Assembly (NCBI GenBank): GCA_947471365.1
Contig: CANIWQ010000016.1
Location: 1-36,151, forward strand
Origin: Gemmatimonadota bacterium
GTDB taxonomy: Bacteria > Gemmatimonadota > Gemmatimonadetes > Gemmatimonadales > Gemmatimonadaceae
Direction: 5' to 3'
DNA length: 36,151 nucleotides
This document shows, piece after piece, positions 13,829 through 36,151 of this stretch. The first letter of the stretch is position 1, and each line of letters begins with the position of its first letter. Made by a program: the position numbers and the translations under genes. The notes under the pieces are model-generated. The model had not been told where the DNA came from and searched no databases. It was given only the letters and a program-made list of their open reading frames with translations.

Positions 13829-15624
13829 GTGGCATCAACGATTTTGCCTTCAAGATGGCGACGGTCAACGGCACGGGGTCGGCCTCGGCCAACTCGCTGC
13901 TGATGCAGGCCATCTTCCGGATGGGGATTCCCGTCGCCGGCAAGAATATTTTTCCGTCGAACATTCAGGGGCTGCCCACGTGGTATGAAGTGCGTGTGAG
14001 CGCCGCCGGGTATATGGCGCGCCCGCCTGAGGTGGACCTGATTGTCGCCCTCAACACGAACACGCTCGCCAAGGACATCAAGACGGTGCGCTCGGGTGGC
14101 TACGTGATGTACGACTCGTCATGGCCCATTCCTGAGGAACTCCGCCGCGCCGACATCACCTTCCTCGGCGTGCCTTTCGGCAACATGTGCGCTGAGGCAT
14201 TTGAGCGCGATCGCGATCGCACGCTGCTGCGCAACATCGTCTACACTGGCGCGCTCGGCGCCCTGCTGAACATCGATCACGGCGTGATCTCGCAGATGCT
14301 CACCGAGAAGTTTGCCAAGAAGAAATCCTTGCTCGACGCGAACGCCAAGGCCATTCAGATGGGCTGGGACTTCGCCACGGCGAACTTTCCTTGCCCGCTG
14401 CCGTTCCACCTCGAAGCGATGGACGAGACCAAGGACAAGGTCATCATCGACGGCAACACGGCGTGTGGACTCGGCGCCGTCTATGCCGGCGCGACCGTGG
14501 GCGCCTGGTATCCCATCACGCCGAGCACGTCGTTGATGGAAGCGTTCAAGGGGTTCTGTGAGAAGTACCGCGTGGACAAGGAGACTGGGCTCCGGAAGTT
14601 CTGCATCCTGCAGGCGGAGGATGAACTCGCTGCGGCCGGCATCACCATCGGCGCAGGGTGGGCGGGGGCGCGGTCGTTCACCAACACGAGCGGCCCCGGC
14701 ATCTCGCTGATGCAGGAGTTCCTTGGGCTCGCGTATTACACCGAGATTCCTGGCGTCTTCTTTGACGTGCAGCGCACCGGCCCCAGCACAGGAATGCCGA
14801 CGCGCACGCAGCAGGCCGACCTCATGATGCTCGCCTACGCGAGCCACGGCGACACCAAGCACCTGATTGTATTCCCGGCGAATCCGCACGAGTGCTTTAC
14901 GCTCACGGTGGAGGCGTTCGATCTCGCCGAGCGGTTCCAGACGCCGGTGTTCGTGGCGAGCGATCTCGATATTGGCATGAACGACTGGATGGTGCCGCGC
15001 CTGCAGTGGGACGAGAATTATGTGGCCGACCGCGGCAAGGTGCTCAACAACGAGCAGCTCGCGGCGCTCCCCAAGTTCTCACGCTATCTCGACGTGGACG
15101 GCGACGGCGTTGCCGCGCGCACACTCCCCGGTAGCGACCCCAAGGGCGCGTACTTTGTGCGCGGCAGCGGGCACGACAAGAACGCCGCGTACACCGAGGA
15201 CAGCGACGCGTATAAGGAAGTGGTGGACCGCATCAGGCGGAAGATCGACGGTGCGGCCACGTCGGTACCGGCGCCGGTGATTATCCGGAACCCGGGCGCC
15301 GAGATCGGCCTCATCACCATCGGCGGCTGCGACGCCGCCGTGCGCGAGGCGATGGACCGGCTCAAGGAACAGGGGTTCCACGTGGACTTCATGCGCATCC
15401 GCGGGTTCCCGTTCGATACGCCGGTGCGCGATTTCATCGCCGAGCACGAGGTGAACTTCGTGATCGAACAGAACCGCGACGGACAGTTGCGGAGTTTGTT
15501 GGCCATCGAACTCGGCGTGCCGCGTGACGCGATGGTCGCGGTGCTGGATTATGCCGGCATGCCGCTCACGGCCAAGTTCGTGATTGACGCGGTGACGGCT
15601 CATTTCGCGGGAGTGACAGCATGA
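13825..15624 (+). CDS. 2-oxoacid:acceptor oxidoreductase, fused gamma-alpha subunit
   Basis: 599 residues starting in the ATGA overlap at 13825. The first about 190 residues are the gamma domain (NGTGSASANSLLMQAIFRMGIPVAGKNIFPSNIQGLPTWYEVRVS..GY). The rest is the alpha subunit with the pyrimidine-binding region (GNTACGLGAVYAGATVGAWYPITPSTSLMEAF, QAEDELAAAGITIGAGWAGARSFTNTSGPGISLM) and the C-terminal domain II/III (ADLMMLAYASHGDT, then IGGCDAAVREAMDRL). With the beta subunit encoded next, it forms an OFOR that oxidises a 2-oxoacid with CoA or reductively carboxylates an acyl-CoA. Gamma-alpha fusion is common in the 2-oxoglutarate-type (KorA) branch, but substrate cannot be read from sequence alone. 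Its stop overlaps the beta start as ATGA at 15621-15624. Confidence 0.92.
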   Translation: MSGINDFAFKMATVNGTGSASANSLLMQAIFRMGIPVAGKNIFPSNIQGLPTWYEVRVSAAGYMARPPEVDLIVALNTNTLAKDIKTVRSGGYVMYDSSWPIPEELRRADITFLGVPFGNMCAEAFERDRDRTLLRNIVYTGALGALLNIDHGVISQMLTEKFAKKKSLLDANAKAIQMGWDFATANFPCPLPFHLEAMDETKDKVIIDGNTACGLGAVYAGATVGAWYPITPSTSLMEAFKGFCEKYRVDKETGLRKFCILQAEDELAAAGITIGAGWAGARSFTNTSGPGISLMQEFLGLAYYTEIPGVFFDVQRTGPSTGMPTRTQQADLMMLAYASHGDTKHLIVFPANPHECFTLTVEAFDLAERFQTPVFVASDLDIGMNDWMVPRLQWDENYVADRGKVLNNEQLAALPKFSRYLDVDGDGVAARTLPGSDPKGAYFVRGSGHDKNAAYTEDSDAYKEVVDRIRRKIDGAATSVPAPVIIRNPGAEIGLITIGGCDAAVREAMDRLKEQGFHVDFMRIRGFPFDTPVRDFIAEHEVNFVIEQNRDGQLRSLLAIELGVPRDAMVAVLDYAGMPLTAKFVIDAVTAHFAGVTA

Positions 15625-33172: not shown

Positions 33173-33208
33173 AAATGCGGCGCGCACCAGTTGGTGCGCG
33201 CCGCATTT
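33173..33208. terminator. Bidirectional intrinsic terminator between the DUF411 gene and tRNA-Asn
   Basis: A perfect 16-bp stem, 33173-33188 with 33193-33208, has an AGTT loop. On the plus strand it is followed by TCCTTCGTTT. On the minus strand, reached after the tRNA gene, the stem ends in ATTTTC. It would end both the M20-M1-DUF411 message and the tRNA transcript. Confidence 0.75.
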
Positions 33209-33218
33209 CCTTCGTTTA

Positions 33219-33291
33219 CTGGGGCGGGTGGACTCGAACCACCAACCGTCGCATTAACAGTGCGATGCTCTGCCAATTGAGCTACACCCCA
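33219..33291 (-). tRNA. tRNA-Asn (anticodon GTT)
   Basis: A 73-base cloverleaf on the minus strand. The acceptor stem TGGGGTG pairs with CGCCCCA, including one T-G pair. The D arm is GCTCAATTGGCAGAGC. The anticodon loop, CTGTTAA, carries GTT. The T arm GGTGGTTCGAGTCCACC has the standard TTCGA loop. The discriminator is G, as usual for bacterial tRNA-Asn. CCA is not encoded. Confidence 0.97.
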
Positions 33292-34453: not shown

Positions 34454-34598
34454 TCACACCGATCCGGCAAATGGTAGTGTTACTGAATCGGAATATAGTG
34501 ATAAAGCTTCGAGCCAGCCACGGATGGTTCGCGGGCCGCCCGCCGGCATCGCGTCGCCACGCCGAGACGGAAAGCCGTGCGCACCTCAGCTACCCCAC
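34454..34598. other. Noncoding upstream region of the ArsR gene
   Basis: No supported gene. AT-rich at 34470-34510 in an otherwise GC-rich region, as expected for the ArsR promoter and autorepression site. On the minus strand the related sequences ATCACTA and AACACTA lie about 19 bases apart (around 34481-34506), a weak candidate pair of half-sites. Confidence 0.3.
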
Positions 34599-34627
34599 TT
34601 GACTTTGCCCCTGAGCGCGCCGATACT
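34599..34627 (+). promoter_or_regulatory. Sigma70-like promoter in the ArsR-MoaD gap
   Basis: TTGACT (34599-34604) and GATACT (34622-34627) are separated by exactly 17 bases. The -35 is one mismatch from consensus, and the -10 matches four of six positions. Initiation would be near 34634. The nearest annotated plus-strand gene, the sulfur carrier at 35043, lies beyond two terminators, so the promoter seems to serve something inside the gap. Confidence 0.5.
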
Positions 34628-34634
34628 AGTACTC

Positions 34635-34730
34635 ACAACTGAAGACTCGTGGTCATTTGCCGCCTATTGCAGCCACGTTAAATAAATGCTAAAACGCAAC
34701 CCGCCCGGTGGCCCTGCCCCCGGGCTTTTT
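34635..34730 (+). ncRNA. Candidate small RNA or transcription-attenuated leader (about 96 bases)
   Basis: The interval is bounded by the promoter at 34599-34627 and the intrinsic terminator at 34703-34730. An internal hairpin CGTGG...CCACG can form at about 34648-34676, followed by an unpaired AT-rich stretch (GTTAAATAAATGCTAAAACGC) before the terminator. It matches no RNA family I know by sight. It could be a trans-acting sRNA or a 5' leader whose terminator controls the mini-ORF at 34792. Ends are approximate. Confidence 0.35.
34703..34730 (+). terminator. Intrinsic terminator or attenuator
   Basis: GCCCGG (34703-34708) pairs with CCGGGC (34720-34725) and is followed at once by TTTTT and GTTG. 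Flanking CAAC and GTTG could extend the pairing. It has the clear stem-plus-U form of Rho-independent termination. Confidence 0.6.
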
Positions 34731-34791
34731 GTTGTCCCTATCGCCGTTTTCGCCGCACTCCTCCTTCGCACTCCTCCTTCGCACGCCGCTG

Positions 34792-34905
34792 ATGACCCTG
34801 CCCTTTCCAAAACACATGATGATGCGCCGCCACGACGGCATGCCCATGTGCGGCATGTCGATGTGTAGCGGCCCGGAGCGCGGCGGCAGAACAGGACTCA
34901 AGTAG
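34792..34905 (+). CDS. Mini-ORF: Met/Cys/His-rich 37-residue peptide (possible metal binder)
   Basis: From ATG 34792 the peptide contains PKHMMMRRHDGMPMCGMSMCSG. That is nine Met (counting the start), two Cys and two His in 37 residues, dense enough to suggest copper(I) or another soft metal. Third-position GC is high, like real genes nearby, but no ribosome site is visible. A GTG in the same frame at 34708 gives a longer, hydrophobic N-terminus. An overlapping frame (34686-34868) encodes a signal-peptide-like sequence ending SHAADDP with a His-rich tail and is a rival. An intrinsic terminator follows 27 bases after the stop. A tandem 13-bp repeat (GCACTCCTCCTTC twice, 34755-34780) lies just upstream. 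Speculative as a gene. Confidence 0.35.
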   Translation: MTLPFPKHMMMRRHDGMPMCGMSMCSGPERGGRTGLK

Positions 34906-34931
34906 TCCGACTCTCCCTCAACGTCGCCTCC

Positions 34932-34956
34932 GGCCGCTCAAACGAGCGGCCTTTTT
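34932..34956 (+). terminator. Intrinsic terminator before the MoaD-like gene
   Basis: GGCCGCTC (34932-34939) pairs perfectly with GAGCGGCC (34944-34951) around AAAC and is followed by TTTTTCTTTCTC. This is the clearest Rho-independent terminator in the window. It must end a plus-strand transcript made within the gap 34454-34931. Confidence 0.8.
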
Positions 34957-35042
34957 CTTTCTCGATCGTTGCGCTCTTCTCTACTGCCCATCGCTCGCAT
35001 TCTCTGCACGACGTACGAATCACCCAACCGGATCACCATACC

Positions 35043-35315
35043 ATGTCCGCCACACTGTTTCTCCCGGCCATCCTCGCCAAGCTCGCCGACAGCAAAGAGC
35101 TCGCTGTTGAAGGCGATACGGTCGGCGCCATCATTGCGAACGCGGCCGAACGCTTTCCCCAGCTCGCGCCCCGGTTGCGCGATGAACAGGGAAATCCTTA
35201 TGCCTACGTCACGTTCTATCTGAACGACGAAGACATTCGGTTCATCGGCGGATTCGCCGCGCCAGTGAGCGACGGAGACGAACTCACGGTGGTTCCCGCC
35301 ATCGCAGGGGGCTGA
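35043..35315 (+). CDS. MoaD/ThiS-family sulfur-carrier protein
   Basis: 90 residues with the ubiquitin-like beta-grasp pattern (LFLPAILAKLADSKELAVEGDTVGAIIANAAERFPQLAPRLRDEQGN..YVTFYLNDEDIRFIGGFAAPVSDGDELTVVPAIAGG). It ends in the required Gly-Gly, whose carboxylate is adenylated and thiocarboxylated. The gene is four bases upstream of the E1-like enzyme that would activate it. Length and the NDEDIRFIGG..PVSDGDELTVVPAIAGG pattern also fit CysO-type carriers for cysteine synthesis, so molybdopterin, thiamin or cysteine are all possible sulfur acceptors. Confidence 0.92.
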   Translation: MSATLFLPAILAKLADSKELAVEGDTVGAIIANAAERFPQLAPRLRDEQGNPYAYVTFYLNDEDIRFIGGFAAPVSDGDELTVVPAIAGG

Positions 35316-35319
35316 GGCC

Positions 35320-36151
35320 ATGGCATCGACTGGATCGCTCAACACGACTGACGCTGCCGAGCTGCCGGAACTCACCAACGACGAGATCCAGCGCTACTCG
35401 CGCCACCTCATCCTGCCGGATGTGGGCCTGCTCGGTCAGCGCAAACTCAAGGCCGCGAAAGTGCTGCTCGTGGGCGCCGGCGGACTGGGCTCACCGCTCG
35501 CCCTGTACCTCGCTGCGGCTGGCGTGGGCCACATCGGCCTGGTGGACTTCGACGTCGTCGACGTCACCAACCTGCAGCGCCAAGTACTGCACGGCACCAA
35601 GGACATCGGACGCCCCAAGCTCGACTCCGCGCGTGATCGCATTCATGACATCAATCCGCACGTCGAACTCACCACGTACAACACCGCACTCACCGCGGCC
35701 AACGCGCTCGACATTTTTCGCGGCTATGATCTCGTGGTCGATGGCACCGACAACTTTCCCACGCGCTATCTCGTCAACGACGCCTGCGTGTTGCTCGGCA
35801 TCCCCAACGTGTACGGCAGCATCTTTCGCTTCGAAGGGCAAGCCTCGGTGTTTGCCACTGCAGACGGCCCGTGCTACCGTTGCCTCTTTCCGGAACCGCC
35901 CCCTCCAGGACTTGTGCCGAGTTGCGCCGAAGGCGGCGTGCTTGGCGTGTTGCCGGGACTCGTCGGCACCATTCAGGCGACGGAAGCCATCAAGCTCATC
36001 TGCGGCATCGGCGAATCGCTCGTGGGACGTCTCCTCCTCGTGGACGCGCTCAACGCCACCTTCCGCACCGTCAAGCTTCGCAAGAATCCAAAATGCCCGG
36101 CGTGTGGCACGCGCGAAATCACCAAGCTGATTGACTACGAAGCGTTCTGCG
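35320..36151 (+). CDS. E1-like adenylyltransferase of the MoeB/ThiF/HesA family (3' end outside the window)
   Basis: The frame is open from ATG 35320 to the window end, 277 codons without a stop. The N-terminus ELTNDEIQRYSRHLILPDVGLLGQRKLKAAKVLLVGAGGLGSPLALYLAAAGVGHIGLVDFDVVDVTNLQRQVLHG has the nucleotide-binding GxGGxG and the N-x-x-R-Q motif. VVDGTDNFPTRYLVND follows. Zinc ligands are CYRC (CxxC) and CPAC. It adenylates the C-terminal Gly of the sulfur carrier encoded just upstream. Ahead of the cut it reads KCPACGTREITKLIDYEAFC, where MoeB enzymes end and MoeZ-type proteins continue into a rhodanese domain, so the choice between MoeB and MoeZ needs the missing end. Confidence 0.93.
   Translation, partial: MASTGSLNTTDAAELPELTNDEIQRYSRHLILPDVGLLGQRKLKAAKVLLVGAGGLGSPLALYLAAAGVGHIGLVDFDVVDVTNLQRQVLHGTKDIGRPKLDSARDRIHDINPHVELTTYNTALTAANALDIFRGYDLVVDGTDNFPTRYLVNDACVLLGIPNVYGSIFRFEGQASVFATADGPCYRCLFPEPPPPGLVPSCAEGGVLGVLPGLVGTIQATEAIKLICGIGESLVGRLLLVDALNATFRTVKLRKNPKCPACGTREITKLIDYEAFC

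Follow-up and report, generated by a model that had tools for sequence, protein, structure and literature searches.

A 36,151-nucleotide contig stretch from a member of the Gemmatimonadota (hereafter the window) holds, within one gap, a promoter, two intrinsic terminators and a short open reading frame rich in Met and Cys codons, which raises the question of what such an arrangement controls and by what signals. The original prediction saw either an attenuated leader of a small metal-binding peptide or an sRNA followed by a small gene. All four elements (promoter, first terminator T1, mini-ORF and second terminator T2) were recovered in their places upon re-scanning, together with an aptamer at 34643-34702 and moaD/thiF-like genes at 35043 and 35320, which were absent from that prediction. 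The features used below are the following.

34599-34627, + strand: sigma-70-like promoter, TTGACT-17-GATACT, 9/12 consensus positions
34643-34702, + strand: SAM-II / SAM_alpha aptamer (Rfam match, conserved in relatives)
34648-34652 paired with 34673-34677, + strand: aptamer P1 (Rfam alignment)
34659-34664, + strand: aptamer L1 hexamer GCCGCC
34703-34730, + strand: terminator T1 (stem 34703-34725, U-run 34726-34730, -17.8 kcal/mol)
34707-34712, + strand: GGUGGC in T1, predicted antiterminator partner of L1 GCCGCC
34792-34905, + strand: Met/Cys-rich mini-ORF of 37 codons plus stop, proposed to encode a leader peptide (8 Met, 2 Cys)
34864-34884, + strand: region 2, pairing with 34923-34940 as antiterminator 2:3 (fold and inverted repeat)
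34932-34956, + strand: terminator T2 (3:4), stem 34932-34951, then U-run
35043-35315, + strand: CysO-type sulfur-carrier protein, ThiS/MoaD family (Pfam ThiS; 3dwg_C)
35320-36151, + strand: MoeZ/MoeB/ThiF-type adenylyltransferase, cut by the contig end

We consider it probable, at roughly 0.8, that the region is a two-stage transcription leader in which a SAM-II riboswitch acting through T1 is followed by a Met/Cys leader-peptide attenuator acting through T2. RNA polymerase would start near 34634 and make the SAM-II aptamer first; with SAM bound, T1 would form and an RNA of ~97 nt would be released, and without SAM the L1 hexamer GCCGCC would pair with GGUGGC in T1 and polymerase would continue. 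In the second stage the mini-ORF would be translated. Were charged Met-tRNA (and Cys-tRNA) plentiful, a ribosome at the stop codon would hide region 2, T2 would form and transcription would end at ~34956; a ribosome stalled at the Met/Cys codons would instead leave region 2 free to bind the T2 5' arm, allowing transcription of the CysO - MoeZ/MoeB - ThrC-like operon. The gate would thus be low SAM AND low charged Met/Cys-tRNA. The aptamer match and its conservation, the covariation of L1 with T1, the recurrence of the layout, the codon enrichment and the mutually exclusive helices are computed support; SAM binding, translation of the mini-ORF, stalling and read-through are inferred. The earlier idea of a leader with attenuation is borne out to this extent, a terminated RNA of ~100 nt and a longer read-through RNA being its predicted products.

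The SAM-II aptamer and its terminator

Taken singly, the signals of the first half are unremarkable: 0.5 promoter-like sites are expected by chance in the scanned region, so that the promoter alone is not significant, and the count of terminator-like sites (5 found against 2.7 expected) is weak by itself. We searched 99 related genomes with the DNA of 34454-35042 (589 bases) and obtained matches in 77, nearly all of them within about 34633-34738; this block, which runs from the presumed +1 through T1, reached E values down to 5e-26 in relatives other than the near-identical genome G006. It is this conservation that lifts the first half beyond chance, the single sequence being hardly above it. 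The TTGAC box also recurs in most aptamer copies inspected, at about equal distance upstream of the aptamer. No second DNA match to the query was found in the window's own genome.

A default Rfam scan of the window returned tRNA only, because both aptamer scores lie under the curated cut-offs. With relaxed thresholds, an Rfam scan of these 589 bases scored the aptamer at 32.7 bits (E 1.3e-5) against RF00521 (SAM_alpha; gathering 36) and at 30.6 bits against RF01726 (SAM-II; gathering 44), a slight shortfall that weighs against the two-stage reading; matches to HIV-1_DIS and suhB in the same stretch were at chance level and were discarded. The conserved core and P1 are present, P1 is without a broken pair relative to RF00521, and in an alignment of 31 sequences its pairing is intact in 100 percent of cells. 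Six of eight scanned loci from relatives hold an aptamer copy over the Rfam cut-off, as does the own genome, where a second SAM-II copy (41.2 bits) precedes methylenetetrahydrofolate reductase and methionine synthase. A covariance model built from 31 copies found the aptamer in 169 of 179 family genomes and, in a sample of the phylum, in 255 of 395, while a strict 30-base core pattern retrieved 84 stretches from GTDB contigs. Among the matches listed (80 of 84), 79 are titled Gemmatimonadetes, Gemmatimonadota, Gemmatimonadaceae or Gemmatimonas and one Roseisolibacter sp., which we take to be a member of the Gemmatimonadota too. Judged by sequence and conservation, 34633-34738 belongs to the SAM-II (SAM_alpha) riboswitches, has T1 as its terminator and is predicted to bind SAM. 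In one relative, two SAM-II copies (L017 and L049; contig positions 14243 and 14506) stand back to back on opposite strands, ~200 bases apart.

The L1 hexamer is mostly GCCGCC, and its complement GGYGGC overlaps the 5' arm of the T1 stem. L1 was readable in 131 of 138 copies, and a partner was sought in the 45 nt downstream: all six L1-T1 pairs are possible in 107 of the 131, against a mean of 30.5 and a maximum of 45 for shuffled hexamers (200 rounds). A different hexamer, mostly GCCGCG with CGCGGC in T1, occurs in 58 copies; 47 of these hexamers pair with their own T1 and 44 of those 47 T1s could not pair with GCCGCC. In alignment A1, 6 of the 31 sequences have both partners of the sixth pair altered. 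This covariation is good evidence for an antiterminator competing with T1, which SAM binding, to judge by the riboswitch class, would disrupt. The two-strand L1-T1 duplex of the window amounts to -12.3 kcal/mol, and the helix is not the minimum-energy form in a simple fold of this single sequence. Six same-genus copies (L040, L044, L050, L022, L023 and L026) have two hairpin terminators within ~100 nt of the aptamer and no leader ORF; the 5' arm of their second hairpin starts with GGCGGCC, complementary to the same L1 hexamer, and one aptamer might therefore gate two terminators.

The Met/Cys-rich mini-ORF and the second terminator

The mini-ORF (translation MTLPFPKHMMMRRHDGMPMCGMSMCSGPERGGRTGLK) ends 26 nt before T2. 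In a fold of 34840-34942, that is before region 4 has been made, 34864-34884 pairs with 34923-34940 (-45.3 kcal/mol), and when region 2 is hidden, as by a ribosome at the stop codon, T2 forms in the fold. A further predicted helix links the early mini-ORF to region 2 from the MMM codons onward. Only 5 of 300 shuffles of region 2 equalled the 2:3 duplex of the window. Across 19 folded leaders the same test was uneven: at most 10 of 300 shuffles were as good in 13 leaders, and the pairing was poorly separated from shuffles in the other six (L042 105, L134 36, L120 35, L205 33, L138 22 and L188 19 of 300). In several leaders foreign region 2s pair about as well, because the arms are alike and GC-rich.

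The expected conservation has two halves: it is found, as described, from the presumed start to the end of T1, and fails for the mini-ORF, whose DNA was matched in G006 only among the 99 relatives searched. The leader and operon start of G006 show only four differences from the window, all on the promoter side, and since the leader itself is identical there and G006 is the sole other genome that carries it, the mini-ORF is without independent conservation. Seven same-genus copies inspected have the aptamer, T1, a second hairpin, PanB and then the same operon, and no leader ORF; with the mini-ORF in just 2 of ~17 same-genus genomes searched, it is a derived trait. The Met/Cys block at 34836-34865 is a 15-nt tandem duplication (CGGCATGCCCATGTG / CGGCATGTCGATGTG), which points to a way in which runs of these codons could lengthen; L042 holds a longer repeated ATGACCATGCGA run.

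The leader-peptide argument is weakest where translation is concerned: no Shine-Dalgarno site precedes the mini-ORF, the anti-Shine-Dalgarno pairing there being +1.9 kcal/mol. This pairing is -3.5 kcal/mol or weaker for all 20 leader ORFs, against -5.9 kcal/mol or stronger for 10 of 19 downstream genes, so that either ribosomes enter otherwise, or the starts are misassigned, or these frames go untranslated. We offer only tentatively the wider idea that the phylum has a layered regulon of its own, in which Met/Cys leader-peptide attenuators were added to SAM-II riboswitches time and again and the read-through T1 U-run serves as ribosome entry for leader ORFs of this kind. If it does, the tRNA sensor would work only once the SAM sensor permits.

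An unlikely alternative is that SAM-II and T1 alone are functional, the mini-ORF being a frame open by chance within an insertion particular to the lineage, and T2 a leftover, constitutive or mRNA-stabilising hairpin. Same-genus relatives with aptamer, T1 and T2 and no leader ORF would fit it, as would the missing Shine-Dalgarno site, the short direct repeats in the mini-ORF segment and the identical G006 leader, which affords no test of selection. Against it stand the complementarity of region 2 to T2 in the window, seldom matched by shuffles, and the recurrence elsewhere, far beyond shuffles, of Met/Cys-rich ORFs with T2 at a fixed distance.

Recurrence of the layout and the genes behind it

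Aptamer copies were collected with a pattern allowing 4 substitutions, and because it allowed just these, divergent aptamers were missed. The choice of non-redundant copies favoured a higher Met/Cys score, the leader copies numbering 20 before and after it (L078 set aside). By our first criteria, an ORF with at least 5 Met/Cys per 15 residues occurs in 16 of 138 non-redundant copies, compared with 0.35 expected, and at least 4 per 15 in 21 of 138, compared with 2.9 expected and a maximum of 7 (40 rounds); on the reverse strand of the 138, no copy exceeded 4 in 15 residues. A second terminator is present in all 20 leader copies and in 21 of 118 others (p 4e-13), and the ORF stops 19-38 nt before T2 in 19 of the 20, the exception being L036, where no T2 fitted the frame then used. 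A poly-Cys leader of cysH in L036 was rejected, as an overlapping Met-rich frame (MRMRVRMRVRMRARARGRPGTTRRCR) fits the geometry better. L078 had been excluded by hand from the 20-leader tests, and a later scan finds a different, Met-rich frame there.

We also applied a composition-free test, which takes any ORF of at least 12 codons that ends 12-45 nt before a second terminator lying at 85-360 nt. Such a terminator exists in 44 of the 157 SAM-II copies that remain once redundancy is removed. A fitting ORF accompanies it in 24 of these, each with 3 or more Met/Cys within 15 residues. When the segment ahead of T2 was shuffled, 8.7 ORFs per round fitted, 1.07 of them with that many Met/Cys (maximum 4). 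Relative to shuffled ORFs, the longest fitting ORFs are enriched 6.1-fold in Met and 1.8-fold in Cys, the two highest values of the 20 residues. The 24 leaders span about ten genera and two families. That the layout recurs in 24 of the 157 copies upholds the earlier placing of the mini-ORF within a leader system, and the mini-ORF most likely encodes the leader peptide, rich in Met and Cys, of a second attenuator; its 3' portion is able to base-pair with the T2 5' arm in the manner of ribosome-mediated attenuation.

The gene nearest the leader encodes a carrier (35043-35315) whose best solved relative is 3dwg_C (E 5.7e-18), which we take to be Mycobacterium tuberculosis CysO in complex with CysM. 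In G006 the operon order is a CysO-like protein, a MoeZ/MoeB-like protein with a rhodanese domain and a ThrC-like PLP enzyme. Elsewhere aptamer, T1, Met/Cys-rich ORF and T2 follow one another in front of metX, metY, homoserine dehydrogenase, cysH and others. The NCBIfam names behind ten leaders, several of them matches under the models' curated cut-offs, comprise two MetX types, O-acetylhomoserine sulfhydrylase, homoserine dehydrogenase, CysH, an OsmC family protein, ThiS/MoaD/SAMP1 (the window), a mercaptopyruvate-sulfurtransferase-like rhodanese, a RimK-like ATP-grasp protein and an aminotransferase. More leaders precede genes that are alike by eye, including PanB in the second family (L287, with no CysO match within its own 2.4 kb). 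The OsmC-like, RimK-like and PanB genes have no plain link to Met or Cys, which counts against the leader reading. The OsmC-like genes of L052 and L143 follow leaders that contain CACMCP and CCC runs, which hints at a role connected with thiols.

It is very improbable that the promoter and T1 delimit a stand-alone sRNA, unconnected to the genes downstream. They do bound a conserved unit of ~100 nt, and the SAM-II riboswitches of Sinorhizobium meliloti yield the terminated sRNAs RZ and RA, according to the available part of PMC9373788, but the unit precedes sulfur amino-acid genes in relatives and contains the L1-T1 switch. Least credible of all is the original prediction's small Met/Cys/His metal-binding or chaperone peptide under leader control, to which the composition MPMCGMSMC and the ArsR-type and DUF411 genes close by (Pfam) would lend themselves, since the mini-ORF has no Pfam match, its N-terminal half varies freely between the otherwise alike leaders L114 and L134, Met and Cys are enriched across leaders, the genes downstream are sulfur amino-acid genes and T2 would sever the operon from its promoter and be left without a role. 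The ArsR and DUF411 neighbours look unrelated, and ArsR was rejected as the regulator, its homologue lying 6.4 kb away in G006, where the leader is near-identical.

Relation to known systems

The first stage of the proposed two-stage leader resembles known SAM-II / SAM_alpha riboswitches (RF00521, RF01726), as far as the sources available describe them, in aptamer sequence, P1, core, T1 as an OFF switch and a promoter upstream; the available part of PMC1273637 places the promoter of alphaproteobacterial SAM-II copies just upstream. Unlike in known SAM-II riboswitches, the L1 hexamer of the Gemmatimonadota copies covaries with T1, and a subset has a second attenuator. This second stage is like trp/his attenuation in its codon-rich ORF, its 2:3 and 3:4 helices and a T2 soon after the stop, and unlike it in that the window has both Met and Cys codons, no Shine-Dalgarno site and a position behind a riboswitch terminator. 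In trp/his attenuation, the ORF abounds in codons for the amino acid under control, and a 2:3 antiterminator competes with the 3:4 terminator.

Several tandem or codon-rich leaders are comparable, as described in the portions of the cited papers available. Two examples of SAM-I/T-box-Met tandems, before metX and metY, form a NOT A AND B gate and share with the proposed leader these targets and the logic of low SAM and uncharged tRNA-Met, although the aptamer class is another and tRNA is sensed there by the T-box, here by a translating ribosome (PMC9481103). In the SAM-II/SAM-V tandem, SAM-II with a terminator is likewise followed by a second control element, but SAM is the signal for both stages and translation the target of the second (PMC9481103). 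The mgtM/mgtP leader of Salmonella mgtCBR combines two attenuators with unlike signals and one codon-rich ORF; there, however, both stages are ORFs and the signals are ATP and proline (PMC3641672). The leader metL of Streptomyces lividans metNIQ contains a Met/Cys run (GARCMCRRMCAF) as here, but has a leaderless start and no clear terminator, and the accessible text describes no riboswitch in front (PMC8079986); uORFC-8-2 of cysS has Cys codons in an attenuating ORF, but serves a tRNA-synthetase gene, again with no riboswitch in front in the text at hand (PMC8632094). A comparable tandem is absent from the accessible parts of PMC2965389, PMC12452182 and PMC6230763. In literature covered mostly outside subscription journals, we found no prior report of a SAM riboswitch with a leader peptide behind it, nor any publication joining Gemmatimon- and SAM-II.

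The leader thus seems to set ordinary known parts in an unreported order, and the combination of SAM-II with a Met/Cys leader peptide seems new. If correct, one leader would combine two sensors of different nature for a single pathway, a riboswitch and a ribosome in the act of translation, and would tie a CysO-type sulfur-carrier operon to the supply of SAM and Met/Cys. For the Gemmatimonadota, for which our searches turned up no published regulatory RNA of the kind, it would be convergent with the rare SAM-I/T-box-Met pairs, and the layered attenuation is testable with one reporter.

Two further observations concern the surroundings of the leader. The stretch 34523-34557, upstream of the promoter, has matches of 86-100 percent at other places in several related genomes and is, by this distribution, a candidate dispersed repeat or operator. 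A 16-pair palindrome at 33173-33208 adjoins the tRNA-Asn gene at 33219-33291 (minus strand) and is probably its terminator.
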